Assembly (NCBI GenBank): GCA_014871385.1
Contig: CM026423.1
Coordinates: 23,359,067-23,423,066 of the forward strand
Direction of reading: 5' to 3'
Length of the DNA stretch: 64,000 nt
Origin: Ceratodon purpureus
Lineage: Eukaryota; Streptophyta; Bryopsida; Pseudoditrichales; Ditrichaceae
Below, piece by piece: positions 10,612 to 62,686 of the stretch. The translations under genes were made by a program, and so were the position numbers. Position 1 is the stretch's first letter. Each line of letters opens with the position of its first letter. Below the pieces are notes generated by a model. The model was not told the DNA's origin, did no database searches, and saw nothing but the letters and a program-made list of their open reading frames with translations.

Positions 10612-11124
10612 CAAGAGGGAGTCGAGCGACAGTCATTGTCATCCTCCGGGCAGGTGAAGAAAACACGAGGGCAGAAAAGGAGGGCACAGTCATCCCCATC
10701 CACTCCTAAGGGCCAGGGGCAGAAGTTCAAGAGACTGCAAAGAATGGAGACCAGACCTAGATACAAGGACAGTTCTTCGGAGCCAATGGACTCCAGGGAA
10801 GCAGAAGAGGTTGAGAGGGGCGCCATTACTTCCAACATTAGGAACGTCCCCTAGCGAAAGGGAAAGGCAAAGAAACATAAGAAGATAGGACGGATCCCAC
10901 GTGAGACACCAGTGGAGGCGTCCCGGACATTGCTAACTCTACGCACCACCCAATGAGCAGAAGCTCAAGATCCCTAGGAACCAGTAGCAGAGGAGGCACC
11001 AATAGGTCAGGAGGTTTGGGCTTCTACGACAGACCAGGCAACACCCCTAGCAGACCCGCACCCTACAGGTATGTTATCCCCTTGGAATCTTGGAGAAGCA
11101 TTTCAGTCAACGGAGGCAGAAAAA

Positions 11125-11703
11125 TTCGAGATAAGTACAGGACTCGCCAGACTAGCAGAGCAGATGAAGGTCTAGGTGACGGAGACAGGGCAACTCCAGG
11201 ACTTACAGTCTAGGAGGGACAGCAGAACGCCAACCTATGAGGAGCTGATCACTAGGAACAAGGCATTGGAGGGGCAGGTTAGTCAGCAGACAGTTCAGCT
11301 TCAGGCTGCGAGTCGGGAGTTAACGGAGCTGAAAGCAACATGGGCGGACACCAGAAAGAAGCTCACTATCTTCACTAAAGAACAACGCAAGGAGAAGGCC
11401 AGATGGGTTGCCGAAGGGGGAGAACTTGAAGGCAGACGAAGGCAACGATTGGAGAAGGAGTTGGAGATGAATGCCTGTCTTAGAGATTACGACCGCCTAG
11501 CCCAAGATAACCAGCAGCTACGACGACAACTGGAGGTAGCCGGGACCTATGCTACTCCAGCCAGTAAGGGCCTGGCTAGACATCTCTTGGCGACAACCAA
11601 GAAACAGGTCTGCGAGGAGTTAAAGGCCTACATAGAAGACCAGGATCGCTTCAACAAATATTTGGTTCATTTTTCCGAAGCCTTCCCTGCTTTTGTATAC
11701 TAA
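11125..11703 (+). pseudogene. coiled-coil retroelement protein, plus copy
   Basis: The frame encodes a long heptad-rich alpha-helical protein: ELITRNKALEGQVSQQTVQL, ATWADTRKKLTIFTKEQRKE, DYDRLAQDNQQLRRQLEVAG, KKQVCEELKAYIEDQDRFN. It has an internal stop before 11176 (QMKV*VTETGQLQDL). It is homologous along its length to the minus-strand protein at 13016-13600. The stop after FVY is followed in the same frame by SDDEQ, and the minus copy also has a stop codon there followed by SDEEQ. Likely a gag-associated structural protein; no enzyme motif is visible. Confidence 0.5.
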
Positions 11704-12807: not shown

Positions 12808-14040
12808 GTCCTCCCGTTGTTGATGGGCCGACGTCTCCTTGCTCCTGACAGATGGAGATGGTACTGGCCCGGGGCTTCCGACTGGTCGAGAAGGAGCTGA
12901 TACTGGTCCCCCAATAGGATCTAGAGAGGCCACTACTCCCTCAACTATGCAGTTAACCGCCTCTAGCTCTGTGCAGGAAATTGGTTCCGTCTCCTTGGCT
13001 TGACCCTGCTCCTCATCAGACTAATACACGAAGGTGGGGAAGGCTGAAGGCAGCAGCGAACCGTACCAAATACATGTTGTACCGCTCCTGGTCTTCGGTG
13101 TAGGCCTTAAACTCTTCACAAACCTGCTTCTTCAAGGTGGACAGGAGATGCCATGCTAGACCCTTAATTGCTAATGAAGTATTGGTTTCAACTACCTCCA
13201 GTTGACGACGGAGCTGTTGGTTCTCTAGTGCCAGTCTGTCATAATCATGGAGTCGTGCATTCGTCCTTAGTTCCAGATCCAACCTCTGTCTTTGCCTCTC
13301 CTCAACCTGCTCTCCTTGAGCTGCCCATTTGGCCCGTTCCTTACGTTGTTCTTCAGTGAACACGGTTAGTTTGCGCCTGGTCTCAGCCCAGGTGGTCTTC
13401 AGATCGGCCAACTCCTGCCCAGCTACCTGTAATTGGGCGGCCAAATCTATGTTCTTCTTCTCCAGCTCTTGGCTATAGCGGGCCAGGTCCTCATAAGTTG
13501 GCCTCTGATTTTCCAGCCGAGGCTGTAAATCCTTCAAGCGCCCCGTCTCCTCCACCCATTGGTGCATCTGGCCCATGAGTTGCTTCAATCCGGCAGTCAC
13601 TTCTGATTTCTCCCCACGTGCTGGCGAGAATACTCATCCAAGGTTCCTTGGTGGTAGAGCTTTTGCAATATTGGAATTTGGCAACCCCACCAGTCTGCCC
13701 TTGTCGTGCATGGGTTGAATGGAACTCCTGGTCATCCTGCGGTCCTTCGACTGAGGGTTGAGGTTGGAGATCATCGGGTGGTGGTGCAGCTAGTCGTTTG
13801 AGGGAGTTGGCGAGGTAGATGCAGACGAGAAAGCATCGAAGGCATGAGGGATGTAGGCCGGATGTGTAGCAGGGACTGCATTGTTCGTGTCTTCGGCAAG
13901 CAAGTTTAGGGTTTAAGGTGATGGGGAAGAAGGGAAGGGCAAACCACGATCGAATACAAACAAGTGGTGCATCTTTAATTTGCGATGTGGAAGACTGTTG
14001 AGGCACTATTAATGTCGTCAATAGCAATCAAAGAGGTTTT
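12808..14040 (-). pseudogene. coiled-coil retroelement protein, minus copy
   Basis: The best segment (13600-13016) encodes ETGRLKDLQ, PTYEDLARYSQELEKKN, TWAETRRKLTVFTEEQRKER, DYDRLALENQQLRRQLEVVE and KKQVCEEFKAYTEDQERYN, an extended coiled coil homologous to the plus copy at 11125-11703. Upstream (toward 14027) lies a Pro/Gln-rich open segment. Downstream (13015-12820) the frame reads on through SDEEQ and a Pro-rich tail. No pol motifs occur. A four-base insertion relative to the plus copy shifts the last codons. It belongs to a minus-strand retroelement whose LTR is probably the one at 31428, now 16 kb away because of the giant hAT insertion. Confidence 0.5.
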
Positions 14041-14314: not shown

Positions 14315-14322
14315 GTTTACAA
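14315..14322. repeat. target-site duplication, left copy
   Basis: GTTTACAA directly precedes the CAGGGTTGT terminus. An identical octamer follows the other terminus at 30604-30611. Eight base pairs is the length typical of hAT elements. Confidence 0.9.
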
Positions 14323-14400
14323 CAGGGTTGTCACGGTTGTCCGGGACGCTCGGGACGTGGGGACGTCCGCGGACGTCCGCCAGCGCCAGGGGACGTCCTG
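14323..14400 (+). repeat. left terminus and subterminal repeats of giant hAT
   Basis: CAGGGTTGTC at the end, then a cluster of GGGACG, GGACGTCC and CGGACGTCC copies within 80 bp. The matching cluster is at the right end. Confidence 0.75.
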
Positions 14401-14459
14401 TGACTTAGAAAAAAAAAATCACCCGCATAGGTTTCACCCCGGGGTGAAACCACATCTTC

Positions 14460-14840
14460 TACGCGGCGGAGGGGTTGCGGGGGAGGGTGCGGCCGTTGCC
14501 GCAGAGCGGGGGGGGGGCCGTCGGACGCGTCGGGAAGGGGCCGTCCCCGGCGACGGCCCCTTGCCGTCGCCGCGGTGGGGGCGGCCGTCCCCGGCGACGG
14601 CCCCTTGCCGTCGCCGCGGTGGGGGGGGCCGTCCCCGGCGACGGCCCCTTGCCGTTGCCGCGGTGGGGGGGGCCGTCCCCGGCGACGGCCCCTTGCCGTC
14701 GCCGCGGTGGGGGGGGCCGTCCCCGGCGACGGCCCCTTGCCGTCGCCGCGGAGCGGGGGGCCGTCCCCGGCGACGGCCCCTTCGACGGCCGTGACAGTCC
14801 ATGATCGGACGGCCCCTCGTTGACTTACGGCCTCGACGGC
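14460..14840. repeat. GC-rich island 1 with 44-bp tandem repeat
   Basis: Six tandem units of 43-45 bp, starting at 14541, 14584, 14629, 14673, 14717 and 14761. Each contains CCGTCCCCGGCGACGGCCCC, which can pair with itself as a hairpin. It lies 260 bp upstream of the transposase start. Long arginine/proline open frames across it come from its composition and are not genes. Confidence 0.8.
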
Positions 14841-15102
14841 CGTCCTCCGCTGATTTTTAGGGCTTACCCCTTGGCATTTCATGGAATGAGTATAAAAGAC
14901 CCCTCCTGAAAGTTGCCATTACACTTCTGAATTGTACTCCATGTGCTACTAGTTGCACTAATATACGTGTGTATCTGTTGCATGGTGAACGGCGGCGTTC
15001 AAAAGTGTGTTGAATTGGAGCTTCTTCGGAGGCTCTAGTTCTCTTGAGGACGTGGTACCCCGATTTTTTGAAGTTTTTCCGGGCGATCTATCAAGTGCAC
15101 CA

Positions 15103-18087
15103 ATGGCGTCTAAAAGTTACTCCCCATGGTATACCGAAGTTCATATGATCGATGCGGAGAAGAAGAAGACTGAGATGGTTCAATGTATGCTATGCAAGAA
15201 CACTTTCGCAAAGAGGATTGAGCGGATGCTTAGTCATTTGGGCTATGACAAAGTTCTAGGGCTACGGACTAGTGGAGTAGGTCGTTGCACTAATTTGTCA
15301 CCCGCTATACTGTCCTTGTTCAAGAATTGCGGTGGCAAATTCCCTAACGACTCCAGAATATTCATGTCGAAGCAGAGTACTTCCCCGGTGACTCGTGGCA
15401 ATATATCCCCGAGAGTGAACACTCCCATGGATGTGGACTCATGCGCTGGATCCCGGGTTTCAACTCGGAAGAAAGAACCCGTCTTATTGGGTGAGGGTGT
15501 ACCTTCCATTTCCACTCTTCCGGGGGAAGGTAGTGGACAGTTTCCTCCTTTGAAGGCAAAGAGGCAATCTACCCTTCAAGAGGGCTTCAAAGAGACTCAG
15601 AGGCGGGAATGCGACAAAGCATGGGCCACATGTTTTTACAAGAACAGTATCCCGTTTAACGTGGCTCGGAGTGCCTCTTTCAAGGACGCGGTGTTGAAGA
15701 CGTCCAACATGAAGAGATCATACACACCTCCATCTTACCACCATCTCCGAACAAATTTACTAGCCCAAGCAAGGACTGATTTGGAGACTTCCTTGAATGA
15801 TAGGATTTTTTCAAGTGTTAGGAAGTACGGGGGAACGTTGGCCCTGGATGGGTGGACTTCTGTAAGCAGTCGCCCTCTAATAAACGCAATGCTGGTATCT
15901 CCAGCTGGTGAGTTATTCTTGGGAGCCGTTGACACGAGTGGGAAAGAGAAGGATGCTGTTTTCGTAGCAACCGTCATTGAGAAGTTTATCCAACAAGTTG
16001 GAGAACGGAACATCATTCAAGTATGCTACGATAATGCTCCGGTGATGCTTAATGCCGGAAAGTTGGTCCAAGCACTCTATCCATCCATATTTGTCCAAGG
16101 ATGTGCTGCCCATGCGATGGACCTTTTGTTGGAGGATTGGAGTAAGATGAAGTGGGTGAAGGAGCTCCTAGATCGGGCTAAGAACTTGGTTAAGTTCATA
16201 AAGATAAGGCAAATGCCACTCTCGGTATTTCGAAAGCACGAGGCAAAACTTAGCTTGCTGATGCCTGGTCAGACTAGGTTTGCATCGCACTACATTATGA
16301 TTTCGCGTCTACTGAAGGTTCGAGGAGCATTGGAGCAGAGCGTTGTGGATCCTGACTGGAGAAACTACGAAACGAAGAAGACCTTATCTGCCCGTGACAA
16401 AGCGAAGATCTCACGCGATGTTAAGAGGGTTGTCTTGGATGACGTTTTCTGGGAGCAATGTGCAAACTTCAAGTGGATGACGAGTCCCGTTGTATATGCC
16501 CTACGAGAGTTTGATGCGAAGGAATCGGCATTGGGTAAAGCCTACGTCGTTCTCCGCAACCTTGAGAAGCATGTTCTCTCTTTACGCCATGAGCCCTTCA
16601 AACTAGACTCAGACAATGGTGATTACTGCGAGGACTCATTTTACGAGCGTAAAGCCATGATTACATCACCCTTACAGTGTGCTGCTGCGCTTCTAAACCC
16701 TTATCTTATTGACGATGAGGACCTTCGCAATGATACTGATGCAATGGCATCGGCGAAGGAGGTCTTGTTGTCGATGGCTCCTCCGACACTGAAGGAAGTG
16801 GTCATAGAAGAGTTCTTTGCATTTCGTGAAGCTTATCCTCCGTTTCGTGACGTACGTGAATCCTCTAAGTCACAACTGCCGCCTTCTGGTTGGTGGGATA
16901 TATACGGATCCGCTGGTAAATTCATTTCCCCAATTGCAAAAAGGATTTTAGCTCAGCCCCTGTCTTCTTCTTCATGCGAGCGGAATTGGAGTAGCTACTC
17001 CTTTGTCCACGACAGGAAGCGAAACCGTTTACTTCCGGAGAGGGCTAATGACCTCGTGTTTGTGTATACAAATTCCAAGATAATTTCCCAGTCCAAGTTG
17101 AGTGCCTTAGGCAGGTTCTACGGGGAGTTGGAGGGGAAGGAGGATCCGAAGGCCGTGGAAACCGAGGATGTTGACAACTCTAGTGAGTCTGATGTTGATC
17201 TACCCTTCGATGATCTATCAATTGACCCCCCCATCGAGGCCCCAGTCGACGACCTCGAGGTGTCTCCGAAAGGAAAATCCCGTTGTTCTCCTGCGCCAAT
17301 GGAGCGTGCTTTCGAGTATGATGATGTCGAAGAAGAAGGTACCAACGAGGAGGATACGATTCCTCTTTCCTCTTTTTTGAATGGAGACGGTTTATTAAAC
17401 AGTGATAAGATTCTCCGGGGAGGATCCTCTCATACTACCGTGGATTTGGTCATACCAAAGAAAGAGGGAGACCCCACCATTGATACTTCTAAGGTTGTTT
17501 CTCCAAACTTCAACCGCCTGAAGGACGATATGGTTCCACCCACTACAAAGGAGGATGTGCCCGTACCCGTATCGGGTGCATCTCGCACATTGTTTGGAAC
17601 TGCAAAGACTAGGGTCCAAGTTGGTCGGTTCGAATCGTCCACGAGGTTGGTTGAGTTGTCTAAAAAAATGAAGGCAGATGCTAAGGCTGCTGAAGTAGCG
17701 GAGAAATGTAGGAAGAGATTGGTCCGAACCCGACAAGCGGACCCGGGCCTCCTCTCTACTGATGACGGACTTCCAATTGGGAATCTCTTTGGGCCGAAGT
17801 TGGCTTTGGGAAAACCGGACATATTTCCTGAGAAACCCCCTGCTAGAGCCACGTCCAAGCGAAAGGCTGTAGACAAGACTCAGAAGGTGTTGGCTTTCAA
17901 TCCTGGGAGGCCAAAAACTCCTTTGGATGACCCGAATGGCCCAAAGAAATTCCTGAACCCATTCGAGTCAAAGAAGAAGACTAAGGCGAGGGTGAAGAAG
18001 GTACGCGAGAGCGATGGCGATGACGAATACGATTCTTCCGGTCCTAGTGGGGCCGAAGTGAAGGACGACAGCGATTATGTGGCCTGA
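15103..18087 (+). CDS. hAT transposase (994 aa)
   Basis: The start chosen is ATG 15103 (MASKSYSPW); the open frame extends to a GTG at 15007. Residues 26-46 (CMLC...H) form a BED-type zinc finger for DNA binding. A DUF659/hAT core follows: LALDGWTS with Asp249, VCYDNAPVM with Asp310, and GCAAHAMDLLLEDW. The C-terminal hAT dimerisation motif LSSSSCERNWSSYSFVHDRK carries the presumed third catalytic residue, Glu626. These give the D-D-E triad that cuts and joins the element ends. After about residue 680 there is an unusual tail of some 310 residues, acidic then Lys/Pro-rich, with no fold I recognise and an acidic C-terminus. The frame is uninterrupted. It is the only transposase in the element, so it is the likely driver of the whole 16-kb unit. 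Confidence 0.93.
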   Translation: MASKSYSPWYTEVHMIDAEKKKTEMVQCMLCKNTFAKRIERMLSHLGYDKVLGLRTSGVGRCTNLSPAILSLFKNCGGKFPNDSRIFMSKQSTSPVTRGNISPRVNTPMDVDSCAGSRVSTRKKEPVLLGEGVPSISTLPGEGSGQFPPLKAKRQSTLQEGFKETQRRECDKAWATCFYKNSIPFNVARSASFKDAVLKTSNMKRSYTPPSYHHLRTNLLAQARTDLETSLNDRIFSSVRKYGGTLALDGWTSVSSRPLINAMLVSPAGELFLGAVDTSGKEKDAVFVATVIEKFIQQVGERNIIQVCYDNAPVMLNAGKLVQALYPSIFVQGCAAHAMDLLLEDWSKMKWVKELLDRAKNLVKFIKIRQMPLSVFRKHEAKLSLLMPGQTRFASHYIMISRLLKVRGALEQSVVDPDWRNYETKKTLSARDKAKISRDVKRVVLDDVFWEQCANFKWMTSPVVYALREFDAKESALGKAYVVLRNLEKHVLSLRHEPFKLDSDNGDYCEDSFYERKAMITSPLQCAAALLNPYLIDDEDLRNDTDAMASAKEVLLSMAPPTLKEVVIEEFFAFREAYPPFRDVRESSKSQLPPSGWWDIYGSAGKFISPIAKRILAQPLSSSSCERNWSSYSFVHDRKRNRLLPERANDLVFVYTNSKIISQSKLSALGRFYGELEGKEDPKAVETEDVDNSSESDVDLPFDDLSIDPPIEAPVDDLEVSPKGKSRCSPAPMERAFEYDDVEEEGTNEEDTIPLSSFLNGDGLLNSDKILRGGSSHTTVDLVIPKKEGDPTIDTSKVVSPNFNRLKDDMVPPTTKEDVPVPVSGASRTLFGTAKTRVQVGRFESSTRLVELSKKMKADAKAAEVAEKCRKRLVRTRQADPGLLSTDDGLPIGNLFGPKLALGKPDIFPEKPPARATSKRKAVDKTQKVLAFNPGRPKTPLDDPNGPKKFLNPFESKKKTKARVKKVRESDGDDEYDSSGPSGAEVKDDSDYVA

Positions 18088-18601
18088 TTGGGCACGATAG
18101 TTAGAAGGCGGCATTTCCAGTGCACCACCCTAGAATGCCACTCTTTTATGAATGTCCATTTCTAGAAACCATTATCATATCATATACATTTAACTTTTAA
18201 GCGGTGGTGCTTGCCTCCTCAATATTGTCCTCCACGTTGTGTACTTATGTTTACTTTGATTGTACTTCTCGCAATTTCTTTCTTGTAATGAATGTACAAA
18301 ATCTACATATGAAGTTCGATGCATCTAAGTACTAACAACTCTTTCAACACAAATGCAACTCCGAGAAAACATAAATGAAATTGTATTAAAACCAGAGGTA
18401 ATTTTTGTATTAAGTGCCATCCTCCAGTCGTTAACTATTTTCTGAAGAGCATCGTCAAACTTCTTAGTGATCACCCAGTAGCATAGGTCCGAATATTTGA
18501 AGGATTCCTCTGTAAAAGTGCGACGATGCTGAATGGCTTCTTCTAGTTTGGCCAATACAAGTGCCCTCCCAACCGGGGTTCTGTCATACATCTTGTACTC
18601 A
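18088..18601. other. convergent 3' region between transposase and RING gene
   Basis: About 510 bp of AT-rich noncoding sequence between two convergent stop codons. A short minus-strand frame (18591-18325) has no recognisable features. Confidence 0.4.
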
Positions 18602-21313
18602 TCAAGTTGGCCATAGTCCCGTGGGCCGTTCTACTTCTCTTCTCTTACCGTCGGCATCTACCACAACTTCCGGTTTTGGAGACCGGAAGAAGCGATTGCC
18701 ATGCATACTCCAATGTCCACCGAAGTTCCTACAAAAAAATTCTCGGTCCTTGGCATCCGGAATTTCACGTGCCCTCATCTCCACCTCATAGTCGTGTGTC
18801 ATCCATGAAAGATCGTCCATTCCGGCATCGTTAGCCGTAGATAGTTGGTGAGTCATTGTCTCCGGGTTCCAAGCCAGTGATTTGCCCCAATCATAATAAT
18901 TCAGCTCTTTCTTAGGTAGTTGGTCTAGTGGTAAATTCCACCGATCAAACTCATGCCCAGGCGGCATCACGTGTTGTAGTCCCAGCATCTCGTAAAAACG
19001 TGAACTAATTGGGGAGCGGCACATAACACACTGTTTGTTGTTTAAAGCAGCCTTCGCGATGCAGGTTATGTGGAACTTGTGATTACAATTTCCCATCTCA
19101 AAGGCCCCTTCCGGCCCAAAATATTGTTGACAGATGGGACACGTTTCCTTCGAATATTCCTCCGACGGTTTGCGGGTATGGATAACCACACGTTTCGATT
19201 CATCCAAATGAGATGATAGTACATCGTACGGCATCCACCCCTCCTCGACCTCTAGCGCCCAGTCGATGACCCCTTCTTTATTTTTGGAACTATGTAATGT
19301 GCGCTCCATCATTTCTCCTACATCGCGCCATATCGTGATTTTTGTAGCATCCTCGCCGCCCTTGGCTGCTGCCTTGTTATACTTCTGTAAAGATGATTGG
19401 ATAGCTTCTTCGACATCCATAGAAGTAATTGCACATTTCTTCATATCCTGTTGTGCTCTAGAGACTATTGTCTCCTTATCTCGTAGTTTGTGGACCCAAC
19501 CAAGCCATGATAATGCCCTTATGGAAGATGGTGTATCATCTACCATCTGTATAGTGGTCTTCAGCCTTTCCAGTTCCGTACGGGCCTCGTCTCTTTCCCT
19601 TCTAGCCACCTCCAAATCCCGTAAAAGAATGTCTAATTCTATTGAATCATCCATTGGCCCTTTTCCTCTATCCTCATGTCCAGGTGTTGCTTGGCTAGAG
19701 CCAATGTCCAATGGAACTGGACCAGATGTCATTTTAGACTTCTGAGACGCCATCCCTTGTGTGGCCCCATCTCCACTTTTATTTGAAAATTTAGAAAGGC
19801 CAAGGTCATCGGAATCCTCACCATCGCTCAGTACTTCAATGATACGATCCTTTCCTTCCACCTTCACCACTTCCTTCTTCACCGCAGGCTTCACTTCTTT
19901 TATTTTGTTTTTCTCCTTAACTATCGGGTGGAATTTTTCGCACTCTTCCAATTGTGCACTCCAATTCATCTTCACTATGTCCAAGCTTTTTTTCAAACTC
20001 TTGATTAGTTGCGTTGCCTCCATTAAATCCTTACTTAGGGCCACGTTCTCTTCGCCTAATTTCACACGGTCTTCCAGAAGAGGCTTAATGGAAGATGCCA
20101 AAGTGTCAAAGCCAAGGGCTCCCTGTATCATGCCCGGAGTGATACTTCCAAATGCATGAGCCATATTTATGAGATCTGGTGCCATAGCGCCTAATACGGA
20201 AGCCCCTTCTTTCAGGGTGTGTGCAATCTTCAACACATTATGAATTTGTTGCACTTCCTCCGTGGTTTTTCCTACAGCGTCTCCCTCTGTGGTATTCTCT
20301 AAGCCCCCACGCTGTTCATCAGAGGACACCTCCGTCAATTTGATGCTAAAATCTAGTAACTCCTTCAATGATTCGTTGTTTGGCATCGACTTCACCAGCT
20401 CCATAATCTCCGAAATGGAATGAACTGCATCCTTTGTGCTATCCTCTTCGGTAGGCACTTGTACTATTGCCAAGGAACTTGGACCATCATCCACTGAACG
20501 AGGGTTGGAGCATCCGGCTTCCGCAGCCGTAAGATGTGTTGAGCAGTCATTGTCCACCTCCACTTCCACCTCATCTACGGCTGCCTTGCCCTTTGTATCG
20601 TTGGAAGATTTCACCGTGATTCCCAGGTCTGCTCTAGGAATAGTAGGGACATTAGTTTCTGTGGCAACTAGGAACATCGTAGCGATCACATTGGCAATGG
20701 CAACGGGCTTCTTTTCCTCTGGACGATGCGGAGTTTTATTCTGTAATTTTTTTACTTCATTCTTCGGAAAGCTCTTTAGATGTGGCCACTGCCGCTTTCG
20801 GAACTCCGCTACGACCTTCTTTGCTTCCAAAGGATCGATCAGATATAAATCCGGAATGTCTCTTACCATCCATCCAATTTTCAACGGCCTGTCTTTCGTA
20901 GTGGGGTACGTACACCAACTAATCTTCCGCTTCAATATTAGCTCCGCATATACCATACTGCAAATGGTATAATTGAAATGGCCTTTGCTGGGCTTCCGTT
21001 GCCCAAACATAGTAGTCCAGACTTCATATGCCCGATGCAAGAAATGGTCATCCATGCATGACCAGGGCTTGCAACTAAAAGTCCGTGTGTTCATCTCGTG
21101 TTCTTCTCGGGGCCACAACTTGTCAATGTGATACATCTTCACATACTTCTTGCACTCCTTGAAAGTCCAGAAAATCTCCCCTACAGATTTCCAGCCTTCT
21201 TCTGCTACAATGTTTTTGTTGTCTAGGATCTCCCAAGAAAAGTTGTGGCACATTCCCTTCGGCCTGTTCCTCTTCCCGGTTCCTCCAATCTCATCATGTT
21301 CCGGATCCGCCAT
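18602..21313 (-). CDS. RING-finger coiled-coil protein, giant hAT cargo (903 aa)
   Basis: One uninterrupted frame from ATG 21313 (MADPEHDEIGG). Residues about 20-185 form an N-terminal domain (CKKYVKMYHIDKLWP at 54, NYTICSMVYAELILKRKISW near 114-133) shared with the neighbouring cargo protein at 25476. The middle is acidic and low complexity, with coiled-coil stretches around 410-480 and 560-600. Residues 725-762 form a RING-H2-type finger: CPIC, NCNHKFHITC, CVMC, with all eight zinc ligands present. About 140 further residues follow. RING-H2 fingers usually recruit E2 enzymes in ubiquitin ligases, so an E3 ligase acting on host or transposition proteins is plausible but unproven. It converges on the transposase gene and is read from GC-rich island 2. 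Confidence 0.88.
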   Translation of the reverse strand: MADPEHDEIGGTGKRNRPKGMCHNFSWEILDNKNIVAEEGWKSVGEIFWTFKECKKYVKMYHIDKLWPREEHEMNTRTFSCKPWSCMDDHFLHRAYEVWTTMFGQRKPSKGHFNYTICSMVYAELILKRKISWCTYPTTKDRPLKIGWMVRDIPDLYLIDPLEAKKVVAEFRKRQWPHLKSFPKNEVKKLQNKTPHRPEEKKPVAIANVIATMFLVATETNVPTIPRADLGITVKSSNDTKGKAAVDEVEVEVDNDCSTHLTAAEAGCSNPRSVDDGPSSLAIVQVPTEEDSTKDAVHSISEIMELVKSMPNNESLKELLDFSIKLTEVSSDEQRGGLENTTEGDAVGKTTEEVQQIHNVLKIAHTLKEGASVLGAMAPDLINMAHAFGSITPGMIQGALGFDTLASSIKPLLEDRVKLGEENVALSKDLMEATQLIKSLKKSLDIVKMNWSAQLEECEKFHPIVKEKNKIKEVKPAVKKEVVKVEGKDRIIEVLSDGEDSDDLGLSKFSNKSGDGATQGMASQKSKMTSGPVPLDIGSSQATPGHEDRGKGPMDDSIELDILLRDLEVARRERDEARTELERLKTTIQMVDDTPSSIRALSWLGWVHKLRDKETIVSRAQQDMKKCAITSMDVEEAIQSSLQKYNKAAAKGGEDATKITIWRDVGEMMERTLHSSKNKEGVIDWALEVEEGWMPYDVLSSHLDESKRVVIHTRKPSEEYSKETCPICQQYFGPEGAFEMGNCNHKFHITCIAKAALNNKQCVMCRSPISSRFYEMLGLQHVMPPGHEFDRWNLPLDQLPKKELNYYDWGKSLAWNPETMTHQLSTANDAGMDDLSWMTHDYEVEMRAREIPDAKDREFFCRNFGGHWSMHGNRFFRSPKPEVVVDADGKRREVERPTGLWPT

Positions 21314-21539
21314 AGTAACCTCGTTTTAAACAAAAACGATATGGTTTTGTTTTAAAGAAAACAAGGAGTTGATAAATGACGTTTACAAAATAACAAATAC
21401 AGAAAATTCAAAAATCCCCCCCCCACAATAAAAAGGGACCCCCATCTCCTCACCCCCACGTACCAACAAGCTCCGAAGTGAATTGGGAAACTGTAGCAAT
21501 AGGAGAGGGACTATTGAGGAGAGTGAAGTGAGGAAGTGG

Positions 21540-22095
21540 GGGACGGCCGTCGCCATATATGGCGACGGCCCCCAACCCTACGGCCGTCCCCCCGAGCCTA
21601 GTGCCGTCGCCCCCCGATCCTACGGCCGCGGCCAATGGCCGTCGTCCCGAACCTGACGACGGCCGTTGGGGGACATCGGGTCGGGGGCCACGGCGACGGC
21701 CGCGGAGGCCCGTGCCTCCGCGGCCGTCCGATCGGGCCGTGTCCTCGGCGACGGCCGTCCGATGAAGGCCGTCGCCGAGGGGACGGCCTTGGAGACGGCC
21801 TCCGAGGGGGCGGCTTGCGGCCCTCCGATCGCGGCCGTCCCCGCGGCCGTCGCCGTCCGATGGCCGCCGACCGCGCGGGGACGGCCGCGGGGACGGCCTT
21901 GGAGACGGCCGCGGGGACGGCACCGTCGGCGACAGCCCGCGGCTGTCCGATCGGGGCCGTCTCCAAGGCGACGGCCGTTCGATCACGGCCGCGATCGAAG
22001 GGCCGTCCCCGCGGACGGGCCCTCGCGGAGACGGCCCACGGCCCTGGAAACGGCCCCCGACCGTGGGGACGAGGCCGTCGCGGCCGCGGGAAATT
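21540..22095. repeat. GC-rich island 2
   Basis: Dense interspersed GGCCGTC/GACGGCC repeats with (C)GCGGCCG units, about 230 bp upstream of the RING gene start. Composition and word content match islands 1, 3 and 4. Open frames on both strands here are composition artefacts. Confidence 0.75.
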
Positions 22096-24340
22096 TCCCT
22101 CTCCCCCTTTTTTAAAATACAAATGAAAAGAACATATAATGCTACATCTTCCGACCACATATTACACTAAACCTGTTAATTTCTTTCACCAATTAAAATG
22201 AGAACAGCAGTTAATGTAAACATGAATTAAAATACTTCATGGTATGCAAAGCATCTAAATTCTTCAACGAGTCATTATTCCGTACGCTCCACTGAAGTTA
22301 ATGTATGTGTCATTTATTCGAATCATTATTTCTGTTGTTTCTATCGTACGCATTTCAAGGTGGTCTATCATCGCACTTTAGAAGTTCCTTGCAGAAATCG
22401 AACTCATCTAAACTTGTTTCAGAAATTGTAATCTAAATAGTTCTCCGTCTTCTTATTCTCCGCTTTGAATTTTTGTTTTTTTAAATACATAAGTGCTTCT
22501 ATTATACTTTCATTAAACGGCTTCATATTCTCAATTTAATTCGAGTTACCATCTCTTTATGTACTTTTAACGTTCCTCCCTCTATACAATTTCCACTTTC
22601 GAATATTGTTTTCATTTACCTCTTCTTTATTTTCCTCTATGTTTATTCCCCTCTAGTTTATGCCTTTTTTTTAACGTCTAATTTGTCTAATATAGAACTC
22701 CAACCCTCGAAGCTCCATAAATGTCATTTCGTGAATTTCTTTTTTCGTCTAATTCTTTTTTCGTCTATTATTTTGATGGTTCACTCATTTGTTTACTTAT
22801 GAATATACTTCTACTTCACAGCTTTCCCCAAGTGTATCGATACGTTATTTCTTAATATTACACCCGTCGTTGTTATAGTTCTAATATTCATATCCGTCCT
22901 CAAACCTCTTGTTCTTTGTGTTGTTCATTAATTTAATTAATTACTATTCCGAAACAATACCACCCTACGAAACATCGTTCATCAGTATTTTTAGTATTCC
23001 AATAATATATATATATATATTTCTAAAATTATGTCCCGTCAATATACGTTTTCGTGTAATAATTTTATTTCCGTACTTGTAGCTCCAAGTATTTCACGTC
23101 GTGACTTTTTAATTTTTCCTTGGTACAGTATAGTCTATGTGTCTCTATGAATTATTGTGCTTGTTAAATTCTCTCATTGTGTCATTAGTAAGTGATTACT
23201 TTTGTACGTATGTACTATACATTGTACAAGTTAGAATCCAATTCCATATTTATATTTACGTTAAAGTGTATATGAATAAACATATATTTGTATAGTGTAT
23301 AATGTAAATGTGTTACCTAATTTATTTATTTCATTTCATATAAGTTGCAAGGTACAACTCAATTCTCGGCGTTGGAAACTAGAATTGTTTATAAAAACAA
23401 TGATTTCAATTTTAGTCGTTCACAAATTGGCATTATTCAGTGACGGTTGAATGTTTTCTGTTTTAATTTTGTTTTTTACTATTATCCCTTCCTCATCTCA
23501 TAATGTGAGCTAGTGATTTTTTTTATTTTTTTTTTAATGATAACACAGTACTATGGTATGGAAGTTTGTAAAATAAAAGACATTAAAGAGCAAGGAGAGT
23601 TTTTATATTTCATATAACTCTAAACCAGGCATGAGAAATTAGAATTGGACCATTTGTTATGAAAACAATGATTTGAGTTTTATTCCTCCCATGAATTGCA
23701 TAATCCCAAGAGAATTGAATGTTTGTTTTGGTTTTCTTCACTTTATTATTATCTCCAGTTCTCTCATAATCTAAACTACTATTTATGTTTTTATTTTTGA
23801 TTCTACCATAATACTAAAGAACGAGAGTATGTAAAATTAAAGAAATAAAACTGGGGTAAATCATTCCATTAAAAATTAGAGTCAAAGAATCTATATAAAT
23901 ATTTTCATTGTATACCACTATTCAAGAAGAAATTGGATCTATATTTCTAAGAGATTTATGAAACCGTGAACCGGTGAAATATAAATGCAAATCTCTTAAC
24001 CATTTAAACGTAAGGTGCACCGCATGAAAAACCAAGTGTGTACATCAATTTATGCGTTGAATTACTTCTAGTGCATTCTCTCCGCGATGTTCCTCTTATC
24101 ATATTGTTGTTGACATTTACTCTTTTGATTCGTTAGTATAAAATGTTAATTCATTACCGTATGCTAAAACATGAGTAACTTCGTTTCTTTAAATGACAAT
24201 TGGTAAAAACTGTTTTAGTGTACCCACAATGTTTACGGTTCTTTCCATTCAATAGGATATATATTCTTCTTCATAAACGTGTTCACATTATTTGTAGATC
24301 CTAGGGGGTTATCCACCCCCAAAGAACCAAAATATCACAT
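22096..24340. other. AT-rich central spacer of giant hAT
   Basis: About 2.2 kb with stops in all frames, homopolymer runs and a short (TA)n near 23007. No gene, LTR or inverted repeat was seen. It separates the two divergently transcribed halves of the element. Confidence 0.5.
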
Positions 24341-24559
24341 AGTTCATTGGATCCCAATTTCAAACGTCCACCCCACCTCCCCGATCACAGGATCTTCAGG
24401 ACATTCCCCACAATATCCGGGATATGTCTCAATTTTCCATTTGTAGGAGATATGCTGTCCAAAGAATCCCAAGTGGGATTGTTTGGGACAAGAAGGAGGG
24501 GGGAGAGTAGGGGAGGAGGGGGGGGAGGAGAGGAGAGAAAACACAAGGGGAGGGGAGTT

Positions 24560-25075
24560 CCTTCGACCCTCCCCCCCCCCCCGGCTGTCCCCGTGGACGG
24601 CCACGGCCGACCCCGCGTAGACGGCCGTCGCCCACGGCCGTCGGATCTTCTCCGACGAGAAGATCCCACGGCTGCGGACGACGGCCGTCCCCGGGGACGG
24701 CCGCGGCCGACCCTGCGTGGACGGCCTTGGCCGACACCGCGGTCGCAGCCCCCCGACCCTGGGGTCGGCCGCGGCCCTCCCCGCGGGGACGGCCACGGCC
24801 GACCCCGCGGTCGGAAGGTCCGTCCGCGTGGACGGCCCTGGCCGACCGCGGGGTGGAGCAAGGCCGTCCCCGCGGTGGGCCACGGCCGACCCCGGGGACG
24901 CCCGTCGGCGTGGTCGGCCGTCCCGACCGCGGGGCGGCGGTCCACCGACGCACCCTTTGGGGAGCGGTCGCGGCCGCACGACCGGTCGCGGCCGCGATCG
25001 TGGACGGCCGCGACCGCTCCCGCGACGGACCAGTTACGGCCGTTGGATTCTCCATTCCCCGAGATCCAACGGCCG
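24560..25075. repeat. GC-rich island 3
   Basis: GGCCGACC and GGCCGTC words in both orientations plus a poly-C run near 24571. It ends about 400 bp upstream of the shared-domain gene at 25476. GGCCGA words are more frequent here than in island 1. Confidence 0.75.
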
Positions 25076-25475
25076 TAGGGGGGCCGTCGTTTGACCTAAC
25101 TGGCTACCTAGGGGTTCGGGCCAGCATAAATGGCTGGCCCTTCTTCCTTTTTCTTCACTTGGGTGCTCGTGCTACATGTGCTGGATTTACTTCAGCTCAG
25201 TTGCGTTCCTCCAAGCTTTTACTACTTCCCCACGGGTTATCGTGGGATTGTGTTTAGGGTTGTCAGCACCATTTGTTGGTTATTATGAAACCAACAATAT
25301 AGTGCTTCATACGTACGGTTTTTTGGCAGGAGTTCTGGGTTTTGTTTTAGTCCTTATGCACTAGATATATACGAGATTAAATCAACTTTTATACGGTGGG
25401 GAGAAGTTACAGGCATTGTTACGAGGTTAATTCGATACACGGTATTCACAGCTACTCGCTTACCGGACTTTCGCC

Positions 25476-26978
25476 ATGCCTCGTAACGACCGGGGAGGAC
25501 CCTCCACTCCTAAAAGGAAACACCCCTTGGATCCATACGCTACGAATGACCCTGATTGTGTAGCAGAGATTGGATGGGAGGGGGAACCATCACCATGGCG
25601 GATGGTAACTTGCAAGGAATATGTCAAGATGAAGCACCTCATGAAGTTGATCCCAGTACATCTACGTACCGAGGCTGCGGAGAAACAAGCAACACGGGGA
25701 GAGATCAGGATCGACAATTGTGAAAGTAATCATTTCAAAATTCGATACAACAAGGTTTTTCGAGCAGCACGAATCCAGAACTCCCGACCTCATATCATGT
25801 TGTATTCGAATATGGCAATGGTGTGGGCGGAGATAGTCTTACACAAGAGGGTTGACTGGACCACAGTCTCGGGCCTGAGGACAGATAGAATGAACAGAGA
25901 CAGCATGGATCTTGTAACAGACTAGAGTGGACATAGCGATTGTCCCCCATTACATATTTCAAACCGTCGGAGTCCACCGGCACAAGATGCAGGAATACAA
26001 ACTCTAGCCATCGAATATAATGATGAGGAACAGGAGAGACGTCGTTTAAGCTATGATGATGAAGACAACTATCGAGGGCGTCGCTCAAACGAAAATCCCA
26101 GGAATCGCAGAGGGCATCGTGCCTGAGAGTCATCACGTACCAACCATGAGGAGTATGGACAAAGCTCTGCCCACGGGGGACACCGTTCGCTAGATCGTCA
26201 GGACATGGGACCCCACGAACAAGGCTATGGCCACGGGGAACCGGAAGGAGCTGATTTACCCTTTGAGTTTGCGAATGGTGCGTATGGACCCTATGGGGGA
26301 CGACCGTGGCCAGATTATGCAACGGGATCAAGATACTTTAGTAACTATGACGACGGCTGGTCGGAAATACCGAGTCCTCCAAGGAGTGCTAGTCCGCGCC
26401 ATCGAACACCTCCGAGAGAGGTACCTCACGGTTATTCCCCAGATCGCGAAGAAGATACGCAGAGACTGGGACGTGATGATTACGCAACTCCCCCTCCATA
26501 CCGCGGATATGGTGGTCATGGTACCCCATCTGCCCTATTTGCAGAAGATGATTACAGATCATCTTCGCGGACTCCGCCTGGAATATTTCCTCCACCTCTA
26601 GGTTATCACACCGACGGTACTGATCACAATAGCGGGGACAACCGCAACGTACTTCATCGCGATGACAGAGTACCACCTCCTCCTTTTGGATACCCTCCCG
26701 GTCGAGTTGTAAGAGATAGCTATTTTGAGGAAGAACTAGAGTTGGAGCGAACAAGGCAAAATTACGTACTACAGATGGAGAATCATGCGTTTCACCTTAG
26801 ACGGGATAATCGAAGATTGATGGAGGAGAGAGAGAGACTTCTGAGAGCCTCCACAAATTCTGCAAGGCACGGGCTACAAGAAACGTACGATCGGGGAGGT
26901 CCAAGCGAACTCCCCAATGATGGGAACTATTATCATCCATATGACTACAATGGGTTAGGGTGGAGGGGAGACTATTAG
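25476..26978 (+). CDS. shared-domain protein, giant hAT cargo
   Basis: ATG 25476 starts MPRNDRGGPSTPKRKH. Residues 46-130 (CKEYVKMKHLMKLIP, MVWAEIVLHKRVDW) align with residues 54-135 of the RING protein in order and spacing, so the two genes share an N-terminal domain. The same frame runs on to 26978 as an Arg/Tyr/Pro/Asp/Gly-rich disordered part and a final coiled coil (ELELERTRQNYVLQMENHAF, LMEERERLLRA). Two stops lie in the way, TAG 25923-25925 and TGA 26124-26126. A GT-AG intron at 25914-26129 (216 bp) would remove both and keep the frame, giving 428 residues; alternatively both are point mutations in CAG and CGA codons. The acceptor has a poor pyrimidine tract, so the question is open. 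No RING is present. Function unknown. Confidence 0.65.
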
Positions 26979-27927
26979 AATGGGGTGCATGGTAGTACTT
27001 TCTACAGCATCGGAGCGTACCGAGACTTTAATGTGGACTTCGCATATTACAAATTTACAACGGAAAGTAAAAGATGCAAGCATAGTATGTACGTAGTTCG
27101 CAGTTTTGTAGATGGAGGTTTAAAATGTACGGACTCAAGAATACTGGCACGTGCCACATTTTGCAAGTAGAATAGATATAATTAGTGTTTTAGAGTGTAG
27201 TTGTGTTGTCTTTTATATTGTAGTTGTCTTCACATTTGAAAGGAATTTACCTTTTTAATATTCTTGTAGCCGTATTCGAAGTGCACATTACTATCAATAT
27301 CACTATTTTTAAAATGACACTTCCTATTGACATGGGTTACGAGTCTATGACTTACGAGCACTAGAATATAATGAATCTCAAGACAAGTATGCAAAATAAT
27401 TTTCAATTATTTTTTTGGCTAAATTAATAAGAATATCGTGAATGATATTTTTTGATGGATGCATATTTATATCTAAGGTATTTGTTTGTACAGGGGATTA
27501 TGAGCAATCATGTTTTGCGGCCCTTACGCTTTCGTCTTCACGAAAAGAACTTCAGTATACGCTTGCCAATATTTGTAAGAATAAAAATTACAAAGCATAA
27601 CGGTTACAATTCACATATCGCATCATTTTCATAATTAGAATTGAGAGTATCGACTTTTAGCTAGATGTGTGGAGCCAATCCGTTTTCCTCATAATACAAG
27701 GGGTAGAAATAGACCAATCTTAGTACAGAGACCATATTTGAACCAAATGCAAGTAAACTTTATAAACAAAATATTGACCGGTGTACAAGAATTGAGATTC
27801 CAACATCTCATAATAATATAGAGTGTAAATATGACTATTCACTACTAAGAGCTATGCCCGCCGTCCGGTAACAAAAAAAACATTATGCTTTTATAGGAAT
27901 ACGGAAAGGTAGATATGTAACTCCATA
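26979..27927. other. convergent 3' region
   Basis: AT-rich spacer between the shared-domain gene and the kinase-like gene. Only short featureless frames (26985-27170, 27452-27634). Confidence 0.4.
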
Positions 27928-29403
27928 TCAGTAACCCTCGCGATAGTGCTCGATGGGAGTGGGCCAGTTGTGTGTATCTCTAAAACGGTTAATAAGATGT
28001 CCGAGTCCACCAATCGTTCCTCTGTTGTTTTGGCAAACTCTCTCAAGGTAACCTTCGAAAACCATTGCGAGTTCTCCGATATTCTGGAAATGGCGTGTTT
28101 CTACTGGCTCGGCTTCGTGGTATGCCGTGCACATGTTGCCCCTGTTGATCTTCGCCGCTATCTTCGCAGCTGCGAAATCCTCCGATGCAACCGTCAAATC
28201 TGGAATGATTTTAATATCTTGGTTTTCCTTGTGTACGTATACCACGCGAGGATCCACCCAGTATCGCCTCCTCATAGTCTCCTCCTTCTGATGGACACTC
28301 TCAAAAACCCAAGGCGACCTTCTGTTCTCTAGTGTCTTGGTCATCAAGCCCCAATCACAAACCCCGATGTAGATCTTGGACTCATCTTCCGGAAAGTGAA
28401 GTAGGATGTTGTCCGGTGACAAGTCATTGTGGAGGTAACCGTATTTGTGTACGGCATCTATGATGTTACACAATGCCCAAGCAAGCTCTGTACGCTTACT
28501 TCGGAAAAGTTGGAGACGCTTCCCTAGAATCGGACTGTCGTCTGCATTCTCTCTGAAGATGTAGTCGATGGGGAGGTCACCCGGGGCCTCGTTGTCTCTC
28601 TGTAGCATGGCTCGAAGGGTCCCACCGTTCCACCAGAACATGAATCCCACATGTTCCAACTGATGAATGGCCTGGAAGCGGATGACACCAGGATGGGGAA
28701 TCCTTATCGCAAGAGATTCATTGTTGTGGTCCACACGTGCCAAATCCGGCCTCATAGACCAATTGATCGGCCGTTTCTCAGCAAACTCCCAGTACGGTGG
28801 GATTTCCGGGTTTCCCTCGATACGAACGCTACGTATGGTAGCATAACCACCTCTCTGGACTTCCTTGTCCAAGTAATAGAAAATTGCAAAGTCTGCCAAG
28901 ATAGTCAAATGTCGTTTACGTAAGTCAGCCGCCGTCTCCATCCCAATCGGAGAATTCCACCAAGTAATAGACGCCCGTCGATGCTTTCTTGAGCTATGGG
29001 GCGCCATTAGTCTCGTGAAGCAATCTGCCTTTGCAATAGTATCCTTGAAGGCCTGGACTCCCCCCCTTTGCGCCTTTGCATACTTAGTAATAACCTCTTT
29101 AGCATTCCATAACGCATCGTGTCCACGTTGTGACACGAAATGATCGTAACCGGGCTTCTGTGTATCCGAATGCCAGCACGGATCCATCAAACGATTCCTA
29201 ATCTTTGTCTCCATCTCTGACTTGAATTTCCTGGGCCCATCTTCCTCATACCGAACGTAACGACTATTCAATGAAACAAGGGTATTCTCCTGGTAAAATT
29301 CCACGATGAATGCCACAATATAATCCTTGCAACGTAAGCTCGGCATGTCATCGAATTTGTTCGCCCATTCCCCCACATTCTTCTGCTTCTTATTCTTCGG
29401 CAT
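27928..29403 (-). CDS. protein-kinase-like protein, giant hAT cargo (491 aa)
   Basis: A single uninterrupted frame from ATG 29403 (MPKNKKQKNVGEW). The first 180 residues are an unrecognised, mainly helical region. From residue 185 come GGYATIRSVRI (glycine-loop position), then an N-lobe-like stretch and GFMFWWNGGTLRAML (hinge position). The catalytic loop is YLHNDLSPDNILLHF with Asp327 and the downstream Asn, and the metal site is CDWGLM with Asp350 (DWG in place of DFG, HND in place of HRD). The catalytic and metal-binding aspartates are kept, so activity is possible; I could not place the N-lobe lysine with certainty. It lies at the right side of the element, read from island 4 and converging on the shared-domain gene. 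A host origin followed by capture is possible. Confidence 0.75.
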   Translation of the reverse strand: MPKNKKQKNVGEWANKFDDMPSLRCKDYIVAFIVEFYQENTLVSLNSRYVRYEEDGPRKFKSEMETKIRNRLMDPCWHSDTQKPGYDHFVSQRGHDALWNAKEVITKYAKAQRGGVQAFKDTIAKADCFTRLMAPHSSRKHRRASITWWNSPIGMETAADLRKRHLTILADFAIFYYLDKEVQRGGYATIRSVRIEGNPEIPPYWEFAEKRPINWSMRPDLARVDHNNESLAIRIPHPGVIRFQAIHQLEHVGFMFWWNGGTLRAMLQRDNEAPGDLPIDYIFRENADDSPILGKRLQLFRSKRTELAWALCNIIDAVHKYGYLHNDLSPDNILLHFPEDESKIYIGVCDWGLMTKTLENRRSPWVFESVHQKEETMRRRYWVDPRVVYVHKENQDIKIIPDLTVASEDFAAAKIAAKINRGNMCTAYHEAEPVETRHFQNIGELAMVFEGYLERVCQNNRGTIGGLGHLINRFRDTHNWPTPIEHYREGY

Positions 29404-29689
29404 CGTGGAAAGCCTTCAAGGCTTCAAGAAATCATAACCGCAACTCCAAAGAAACCCTCAATTCCCACAATGATTAATAAGAGCAATACAAATCCAAAGG
29501 GTTTTGAAAAAAACCGTTTAAAAATTCGAAAAGTCCCCCCCCCCCCCCCCCCCCAAATGAAGGACCCCTTTCCTCCCGGTGAGAACGACCAACGGAGAAG
29601 GATCAAGTCCCCCACCAGTAGCAATCAGCCTCACTCGAAAAGGGAGAAAAAAGGTAAAAAATGAAGAGGCGGCTTCCCCTTATATAGGG

Positions 29690-30460
29690 GAAGCCGACCT
29701 CGCGGCCGTCCCCACGGCCGTCCCCGCGGCCGTCCGATCTACGCCCCCGCGGCCGTCCGATCGGGCGCGACTCCGCCCGAAGGCGCCGGCCGTCCGATCG
29801 GACGGCCGCGTCGGGCGATGGCGCCGCGTGGCCGTCCGACCGACGCGGCCGTCTCCGCGGTCGGCCCCGTCTGCACGCGGTCGGCCACGCGGACGGCCGT
29901 GTCTCCCCGCGGTCGCCCACGCGGACGGCCGCGGGATCGGACAGCCCTCCGTGGCGGCCATGGTCGGCCGCGGAGGGCCGTCCGATCCAGTGGCCGTCCC
30001 CGCGGCCGACCGCGGAGACGGCCGCCCGATCGGACGGCCCACCCAGGCCGACCATGGCTGCCGCGGGCCGTCCGATCCCGCGGCCGTCGCCGTTGCCGAC
30101 CGCGGGGACGGCCACGGGGACGGCCGCGGGATCGGACGGCCCGCGGTCGGCCGCGCCGATCGAGCATTCCCCGATGGCCTGCGCCGGGATCGATCCGGGC
30201 CGTCGGATCCCGCGGCCGTCCCCGAGGCCGTCCCCGCGGTCGGCCGCGGCGACGGCCGTGGGATCCGACGGCCCTGGAGGGCCGCCCACATCCGACGGCC
30301 CGCGATGTGCTAGCACGGCCGCATCTTGGCCGTCGGATCGACGTGCGGCCGTCCGCAACGACCCCGCGGCCGTCTCCGCGGCCGTCCCCGCGGCCGTCCC
30401 CGCGAACGGACGGCCGAGATGAGGCGTGGTGGCGGGATCGGCCGATCGGACGGCTGGGGA
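29690..30460. repeat. GC-rich island 4
   Basis: About 770 bp of GGCCGTC, GCGGCCGTCC and GGATCGGACGG words upstream of the kinase-like gene, partly organised as longer interspersed units (CGCGGGATCGGACGGCC recurs). A poly-C run (29535-29554) lies between it and the gene. Confidence 0.75.
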
Positions 30461-30504
30461 ATGTTTTTACTCCTCCGGGGTCGCAAAATTATTACCGCGG
30501 CGTA

Positions 30505-30603
30505 ATTCTCGAGCGTCGGGGACGCCACGTCCGGGACGGGGGACGTCCGGGTCGGACGTCTTGACGTCCGGAGCCGGGTCGGACGTCTATTTGAACAACC
30601 CTG
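30505..30603 (-). repeat. right terminus and subterminal repeats of giant hAT
   Basis: ACGTCC/GGACGT copies recur about every 10-20 bp (30505-30587), followed by the terminus ACAACCCTG. This mirrors the left end. Confidence 0.75.
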
Positions 30604-30611
30604 GTTTACAA
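30604..30611. repeat. target-site duplication, right copy
   Basis: GTTTACAA, identical to 14315-14322. Confidence 0.9.
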
Positions 30612-30699
30612 GGAGTACATTTTCGAACTGGCAGTTGTGAAAGGAATATTTTCCTTACTCCTTCAAAAAATGAATATTGTCCTAAACTCTCTGAAATCT

Positions 30700-57644: not shown

Positions 57645-57687
<43 letters not shown>

Positions 57688-61697: not shown

Positions 61698-61700
61698 TTA

Positions 61701-62660: not shown

Positions 62661-62686
62661 TTTTACATTGAGTTTTACGTGGCATT

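Follow-up and report, generated by a model that had tools for sequence, protein, structure and literature searches.

A four-gene hAT transposon in Ceratodon purpureus

The window, i.e. the whole stretch of 64,000 nucleotides that was analysed, is placed at C3:23359067-23423066 of the Ceratodon purpureus genome (362,488,568 bp, 151 contigs). The interval 14323..30603, counted from the first letter of the window, is a large hAT DNA transposon of this moss with four genes, namely: a hAT transposase gene, a RING-H2 gene, a gene whose product has an N-terminal domain in common with the RING protein (gene 3), and a protein-kinase-like gene. They are arranged as two convergent pairs with an AT-rich spacer of 2 kb between them, and GC-rich blocks flank the spacer on both sides. 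The element and its close copies are referred to as family I, and a more distant group as family II. The features are as follows:

14315..14322: left 8-bp target-site duplication GTTTACAA (sequence read)
14323..30603: whole element, family I, 16,281 bp (ends, flanks, copy comparison)
14323..14331, + strand: left terminal inverted repeat CAGGGTTGT, 9 bp (identical 9 bp in family II)
14361..14398: subterminal repeats of the left end, made up of three GGACGTCC palindromes (GGACGTC 6 times over both strands; 0.07 on average and at most 2 in shuffles)
14414..14865: GC-rich block 1, ahead of the transposase gene (17 GGCCGTC in 14330-14860)
15103..18087, + strand: hAT transposase, 994 aa, open frame (Pfam domains, alignment, copies)
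18412..21313, - strand: RING-H2 gene, start codon at 21313; frameshift near 18617, last ~90 residues absent
19016..19144, - strand: RING-H2 finger (Pfam and alignment; coordinates by hand)
20909..21223, - strand: N-terminal domain of the RING protein, common with gene 3 (coordinates by hand from the alignment)
21507..22121: GC-rich block 2, ahead of the RING gene (23 GGCCGTC in 21450-22110)
24483..25105: GC-rich block 3, ahead of gene 3 (14 GGCCGTC in 24420-25110)
25476..26978, + strand: gene 3, common N-terminal domain and long tail; stops at 25923-25925 and 26124-26126
25545..25865, + strand: N-terminal domain of gene 3
27928..29403, - strand: protein-kinase-like gene, 491 aa, open frame (Pfam, relatives, alignment, copies)
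29651..30613: GC-rich block 4, ahead of the kinase gene and extending to the right end (31 GGCCGTC in 29600-30560)
30541..30587: subterminal repeats of the right end (GGACGTC 5 times over both strands; 0.22 on average and at most 3 in shuffles)
30595..30603, - strand: right terminal inverted repeat, 9 bp (sequence read)
30604..30611: right 8-bp target-site duplication GTTTACAA (sequence read)

Short inverted ends of the CAGGG type are a trait of the hAT superfamily. Position 14323 is the only place on the + strand of the window where CAGGGTTGT occurs, and ACAACCCTG likewise has a single occurrence, ending at 30603. When the window was scanned for perfect 9-bp inverted ends with perfect 8-bp direct repeats, 200-30,000 bp apart, four pairs were returned, and the 14323..30603 element is the only one of them with hAT-type (CAGGG) ends. 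The inverted termini and identical 8-bp flanks given in a preliminary description of this DNA were thus confirmed, at a length of 16,281 bp. No convincing inverted ends with a duplication were seen for a second transposon at 53-60 kb of the window.

The proteins encoded by the element

The transposase matches the Pfam families DUF659 (E 1.5e-35) and Dimer_Tnp_hAT (E 5.7e-10); the latter, the hAT C-terminal dimerisation domain, scores 39.3 bits against a curated cut-off of 21.4 (28.4 bits in family II). D287, D348 and E664, as well as C372/H375, are invariant in 14/14 aligned rows (window and 13/25 hits, with residue numbering from window:14989-18084), so that the D-D-E hAT transposase proposed earlier is confirmed by both domains and residues. 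The CxxH signature is named in PMC9587614. In two hits outside the alignment, P0005 and P0015, the catalytic E is replaced by K, as judged by eye. An N-terminal BED zinc finger scores 13.6 bits, under its cut-off of 20.6, and its C66, C69 and H83 are invariant in the 14 rows. Among solved structures the best match is Hermes at E 0.13-0.2, the transposase profile giving no match at 0.1.

The RING protein contains a zf-RING_2 domain (32.0 bits vs. a cut-off of 27.3), all eight zinc ligands of which are invariant in 9/9 rows (window and all 8 hits); the best solved structure for the RING profile is the RNF24 RING (E 1.5e-5). The claimed RING protein is therefore upheld, and judged from its sequence it would be ubiquitin-ligase-like. 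Residues 968-1058 of its relatives have no counterpart in the window element, where ~425 bp present in two further copies of the element (a and b, see below) are missing near 18407-18412.

Gene 3 and the RING protein have an N-terminal domain (N-domain) in common, with a BLASTP E value of 1e-9 that improves to 1.8e-21 with an HMM built without gene 3, which bears out the shared-domain protein of the preliminary description. In a six-frame scan of the window with the N-domain HMM, only the RING and gene 3 ORFs match well, and the next best match is at E 0.05. The ORF at 54032-55555 was considered as a further member of the shared-domain family, but this is not supported (BLASTP E 0.042 at best, and no match to the N-domain HMM). 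Gene 3 of the window is interrupted by an in-frame TAG at 25923 and a TGA at 26124, whereas copies a and b have an uninterrupted frame of 500 aa. Accordingly, it is not three of the four frames that are unbroken, as had been stated, but just two (transposase and kinase), RING having a frameshift and a deletion and gene 3 two stops.

For the kinase-like protein, the Pkinase match in family I (23.8 bits) stays under the cut-off of 31.7, while that in family II (41.7 bits) is over it. K214, E233, D331, N336, D354 and G356, which were assigned by eye as the Lys, Glu, catalytic Asp, Asn and DFG-type Asp-x-Gly residues, are kept in 15/15 kinase rows (window and 14 of 120 listed hits). Across the conserved catalytic and zinc-binding residues, the one exception among the aligned rows is one kinase glycine in one row. 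The kinase profile matches a MAP kinase among solved structures (E 0.00099). The proposed kinase-like nature is thus retained as a prediction from the kept motif residues, though the Pfam score falls short.

Further copies of family I

Genome-wide, CAGGGTTGT is found at 1901 + 1927 places, compared to 934 + 1020 for the pattern read backwards. The first 100 listed places, which span 0-9.93 Mb of C1, were used as a sample; adjacent opposite-strand pairs 3-17 kb apart were picked from it by eye, and all 17 resulting intervals were taken. An exact 8-bp duplication is present in 15/18 intervals (the 17 and the window). L026 and L029 have one duplication in common and are therefore not independent, and the family-II copies 12a and 12b have one right flank in common.

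Three of the intervals are full-length copies of the window element, namely: copy a (C1:6868207-6884996, 16,790 bp, duplication CGTGGGCA), copy b (C1:9171281-9188042, 16,762 bp, duplication GCTCAAAG) and copy c (C1:3992289-4009092, 16,804 bp, duplication GTAATGAC). All four genes, in an identical order, are found in 4/4 full-length copies, at four different insertion sites. In copy b all four frames are open (994, 1056, 500 and 491 aa). No full kinase frame was found in copy a, and the kinase match of copy c is split into two adjoining pieces at residue 395, the other genes of c giving single tblastn matches; the kinase frame is hence intact in 2/4 copies. Because three further full-length copies keep the gene set and order, and each is flanked by a perfect 8-bp duplication of its own, the claim of a single mobile unit is supported. 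By extrapolation from this one stretch, three copies in 9.93 Mb would correspond to roughly a hundred in the genome, which is a guess.

The preliminary description had proposed a search for other copies in the same genome and for part-copies with their own ends. The former yielded the three four-gene copies in the first 9.9 Mb of one contig; as to the latter, the 17 intervals contain one shortened family-II copy and short derivatives for which no gene was detected, and no separate halves of the element. Of the seven short intervals (4.2-5.1 kb) with family-I-type ends, L024-L029 show no gene match to family-I queries at E 1e-5, and L035 shows none at 100 bits. L030 does not match the family-I queries either. 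L022 (9,576 bp, same 9-bp ends) was rejected as a member of family I, since 0/5 family-I queries match it and it lacks a duplication.

The insertion had also been called recent. Its duplication is indeed perfect, but the support for a young age is weak because two of the four genes are broken and the window diverges more from a and b (~2-6%) than a does from b (~1-3%).

A second, deeply diverged family

Four other intervals, 12a, 12b, 10.8 and 12.4 (C1:4255773, 4292861, 5262100 and 1819937, respectively), are 10.8-12.4 kb long and have CAGGGTTGT-type 9-bp ends that enclose RING, kinase and transposase genes. In 12b the three frames are open (793, 526 and 1094 aa), whereas the 12a RING and the 10.8 transposase are interrupted (each outside one frame). 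In the sole pair compared between the families, 12b and copy b, there is no blastn match at 1e-10. At the protein level, identity between the families is 33.7% for the transposase, 26.2% for RING and 28.3% for the kinase. Family II nevertheless has the DUF659 and Dimer_Tnp_hAT domains, a zf-RING_2 match of 27.9 bits that is just over the cut-off, the Pkinase match given above, and the N-domain in its RING protein (HMM E 2.1e-26). Its gene order is unlike that of family I, and gene 3 was not found in its copies. A shortened member, L023 (5,662 bp), retains parts of the transposase and RING genes and is flanked by a duplication of its own.

The linkage of transposase and RING genes extends to other sequences. 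On L001, a contig of 6,291 bp, the 3' part of a hAT transposase precedes an N-domain/RING gene of the same orientation; this contig is filed as a cyanobacterial MAG and is probably a stray eukaryotic contig. Two transposase/RING pairs of hits, P0003/P0027 (7,321, ena) and P0009/P0028 (8,444, jgi), come from contigs equal in length and source, from which we infer that the two genes are linked there; with jittered lengths, two or more such coincidences occur in 0.0001 of trials. Furthermore, transposase and RING identities fall together (76.8/66.8, 48.9/42.5 and 30.2/26.1). For the kinase, no contig matches the transposase and RING lists by length (62/120 listed by script, the others by eye). 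L002 and L003 are hAT fragments with no RING gene in their ORF lists, and four scans of viral contigs yielded no relatives.

GC-rich blocks and family-specific motifs

The four GC-rich blocks of the window element have a G+C content of 74-77%, and their inner edges lie 194-371 bp upstream of the start codons (threshold 66% in family I, 62% in family II). Outside the element, the same threshold finds two weaker blocks (64-65% G+C, at 10476-10612 and 55962-56477). The heptamer GGCCGTC is enriched in the four stretches, where counts of 17, 23, 14 and 31 compare with 0.57-1.09 on average, and 4-7 at most, in first-order Markov sequences, and 85/85 of its occurrences in the whole window fall between the element ends. 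A different heptamer, GGACGTC, marks the termini: with both strands counted, and hence palindromes twice, it occurs 6 times in the first and 5 times in the last 100 bp of the element, 0 times in the internal blocks, once elsewhere in the element and 17 times in the window.

In family II, GC-rich blocks are likewise located at the ends and ahead of each gene, and the motif in them is GGCGCGA. In all eight copies examined, the motif of the copy's own family is confined to the blocks (GGCCGTC in family I: 85/85, 106/106, 105/105 and 101/101; GGCGCGA in family II: 56/56, 54/54, 29/29 and 57/57), while the other family's motif is nearly absent (2 GGCGCGA per family-I copy and 0-1 GGCCGTC per family-II copy). 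It should be noted that the motifs were chosen post hoc among enriched words, that shuffle controls cover GGCCGTC and GGACGTC only, and that GGCGCGA was selected among the most frequent words in the blocks of 12b.

The CpG observed/expected ratio is 1.06-1.33 in the blocks, compared to 0.67-0.68 in the flanks. High CpG does not single out the arrays, however, because the ratios of the motif-free AT-rich spacer at 22200-24300 (1.15) and of the genes (0.75-0.94) also exceed those of the flanks.

Selection on the element genes

Nei-Gojobori dN/dS ratios were obtained within each family. For 12b vs. 10.8, the ratio is 0.48 for RING (bootstrap 0.32-0.70) and 0.64 for the kinase (0.41-1.11); for the family-II transposase vs. 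L023 it is 0.33-0.37, with intervals reaching above 1. In family I, comparison of the window with a and b gives 0.56-0.64 for the transposase, again with intervals reaching above 1, and 0.86-0.89 for RING; gene 3 is at 0.33 (intervals 0.13-1.06 and 0.08-0.97) and the kinase, for the window vs. b, at 0.41 (0.16-1.53). The a-b and 12a-12b ratios are meaningless because they rest on three changes or fewer. Purifying selection is thus supported for one accessory gene, the family-II RING, and both the family-II kinase and the family-I RING are inseparable from neutrality.

A probable conserved core set of genes

The preliminary description had spoken of regulatory cargo. The extra genes are there as claimed, but because the deeply diverged family II also carries transposase, RING and kinase genes, they are better read as a conserved core set. 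The RING and kinase genes seem to be functional components that belong to the element, as opposed to chance riders, and it is highly probable that the unit with its core set represents an old multi-gene hAT lineage that keeps its accessory genes. To the explanation as a whole, i.e. a four-gene hAT unit with a diverged sister family, in which transposition, the core set, an array reader and the RING and kinase activities are steps that we infer, we assign a probability of about 0.8.

As to mechanism, the transposase would bind the GGACGTC-bearing ends, excise the whole unit and reinsert it, with the genes serving as core functions of an old lineage. RING or gene 3 may, via the N-domain, recognise the arrays of their own family, so that the promoters would stay active or unmethylated, and the targets modified by RING and the kinase may be the transposase itself or host factors of silencing, repair or transcription. 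That an N-domain protein reads its family's arrays is a tentative proposal. Similarly tentative is the full picture, in which an ancient plant hAT lineage would encode its own post-translational and promoter control (RING-H2, kinase and an N-domain reader that co-evolves with the arrays) to escape silencing, as an independent counterpart of VANC within another transposon superfamily. By analogy, the strategy would be that of VANC anti-silencing in the VANDAL elements of Arabidopsis, achieved by presumably unrelated proteins.

Another role for the accessory proteins, to which we give somewhat less than an even chance, is that they belong to the transposition machinery (transposase level, cell-cycle timing, repair or re-insertion), the arrays being ordinary promoters and subterminal sites with no anti-silencing function. 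Many hAT transposases bind subterminal repeats, which counts for this possibility, but the end motif is distinct from the promoter-array motif and missing from the internal blocks, and arrays that are family-specific fit recognition by a co-evolving protein. Accessory proteins are known elsewhere from the available text of two reports, namely KolX, nucleases and helicases in Kolobok (PMC9587614) and an alpha-kinase in IS3EU (PMC12730594), which also favours a role in transposition.

It is improbable that an ordinary hAT took up host RING and kinase genes as riders without a role. Such capture exists, as the excerpted account of a fungal hAT with histone H3 indicates (PMC6710886), and the broken RING and gene 3 of the window and the family-I RING ratio of 0.86-0.89 would suit it. 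Against it are the same gene types in family II at 34/26/28% identity, in another order and with a GC-rich block ahead of each, the transposase-RING linkage on three more contigs (one read directly, two deduced from lengths), the four open frames of copy b, and the family-II RING ratio of 0.48 with an interval below 1.

That neighbouring hAT units, one with transposase and RING and the other with gene 3 and kinase, were joined or nested inside one outer pair of ends is hardly credible and was rejected: the two convergent gene pairs, the AT-rich spacer flanked by GC-rich blocks, the one-mismatch end-like word TAGGGTTGT at 25255, just beyond block 3, and five two-mismatch end-like words within 21.3-24.6 kb would agree with it, but all end-like words between 21.3 and 24.6 kb have two or more mismatches, the GGACGTC end motif is missing from the internal blocks, RING and gene 3 have a common domain in opposite halves, and 4/4 copies show the same whole structure with their own duplications, with no half alone in 17 intervals.

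Relation to known systems

The moss elements agree with DUF659-type members of the superfamily in their short CAGGG ends, 8-bp duplications, D-D-E residues with CxxH, and DUF659 and dimerisation domains. Typical hAT elements are a few kb long with one gene, whereas the moss elements reach 10.8-16.8 kb, contain three or four genes and have an array ahead of each gene. VANDAL elements, unlike the moss hAT, are of the MULE type. According to the available part of the VANDAL21/VANC report on Arabidopsis (PMC5735166), they resemble the moss elements in having accessory genes and a short family-specific motif in non-coding tandem repeats, and VANC targets are short motifs that have accumulated as tandem repeats. 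The likeness concerns a proposed mode of action, both array binding and demethylation by the moss proteins being putative.

The other comparisons are likewise drawn from excerpts of the reports. The hAT with histone H3 in Pseudocercospora fijiensis (PMC6710886) is also a DUF659 hAT with 8-bp duplications and an extra gene inside its 9.5-9.9 kb; it differs in that the gene is a single host housekeeping gene and the transposon copies are inactivated by RIP, and no RING or kinase is reported in the excerpt. The fungal TET/JBP transposons hAT7 and IS3EU (PMC12730594) resemble the moss elements in carrying genes for regulatory enzymes, including an alpha-kinase beside the transposase in IS3EU, but they encode different proteins and make 7-bp (hAT7) or 6-bp (IS3EU) duplications, compared to 8 bp in the moss. 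In addition, TET genes are said there to move between transposon families (PMC12730594), whereas here, in the pairs compared, RING identity declines along with transposase identity. Kolobok lineages (PMC9587614) have lineage-specific accessory proteins beside a DDD/E transposase, but these are KolX, nucleases or helicases, and the duplications are TTAA (4 bp). DNA transposons with extra genes are known already, while a RING or protein-kinase gene inside a hAT element was not found in the literature searched (open-licence PubMed Central, mostly at the title or abstract level).

Since RING and kinase genes are kept across families of this hAT lineage that share only 34% of their transposase residues, signalling by ubiquitin and phosphorylation may belong to its lifestyle, and the family-specific arrays permit a direct test of which element protein reads which array. 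There is also a consequence for annotation, in that kinase and RING genes annotated in mosses may be transposon genes, which matters for gene counts on moss chromosomes. One example is KC19_VG055000 of Ceratodon purpureus, the best database relative of the kinase, which is 96% identical to the element kinase and may be such a gene. Its KC19_VG prefix stands for the V sex chromosome. The many copies may swell the annotated gene content of moss chromosomes, sex chromosomes included; the cluster of KC19_VG055000 at 90% identity has 126 member sequences.

Related copies and contigs outside the window

One of the full-length family-I copies elsewhere in the moss genome (copy a, L012-L013) encodes a kinase whose first 84 residues are 98.8% identical to the window kinase. 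Beyond residue 84, the DNA is still about 96% identical to that of the window, yet the reading frames followed there give a protein identity of only about 65%.

Two copies of the second, diverged family, 12a and 12b (L016-L019, G000:C1:4255710-4304880, on another contig of the same genome), lie 37 kb apart and are 98.9% identical. Since they also have a common right flank, the pair probably arose by local duplication, with the element included.

On the same contig, a 9,576-bp interval (L022, G000:C1:7215225-7224930) is bounded by the 9-bp ends of the element, its identical ends, CAGGGTTGTTTGGACCCAAGTGCG, being longer. No match to the family-I genes was found within it, and no 8-bp duplication was detected at its ends. 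It possibly represents a further family, or two ends that belong to different elements.

Outside the moss genome, a contig from a cyanobacterial MAG (L001, CADCWO010000266.1) carries a hAT transposase gene and a RING gene, and is therefore probably a stray eukaryotic contig.

Other features of the window

Two ORFs on opposite strands, which resemble each other by eye, lie immediately left of the element:

11176-11703, + strand, coiled-coil-like ORF
13016-13633, - strand, coiled-coil-like ORF

To the right, ORFs at 45749-49311 look like exons of a putative plant callose synthase when read by eye.

Another unit of similar look to the element spans 53113-60435 and contains the following:

53113, 56826 and 60390, GAGCGG-type blocks
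54032-55555, + strand, ORF with one in-frame TAG and, by eye, a C-terminal Cys/His cluster
55962-56477, G-rich tandem block of a 66-bp repeat
58752-60014, - strand, SWIM-like protein, weak match (E 0.086)

A search for convincing ends with a duplication around this unit found none, and by BLASTP its ORF at 54032-55555 is not similar to the RING gene (E 0.042).

At the right side of the window (61024-63752), a 300-bp direct repeat is present in two 100% identical copies spaced 1,663 bp apart, each containing CAGGGTTTACAA (at 61044 and 62707), together with additional repeats of 87-99% identity.
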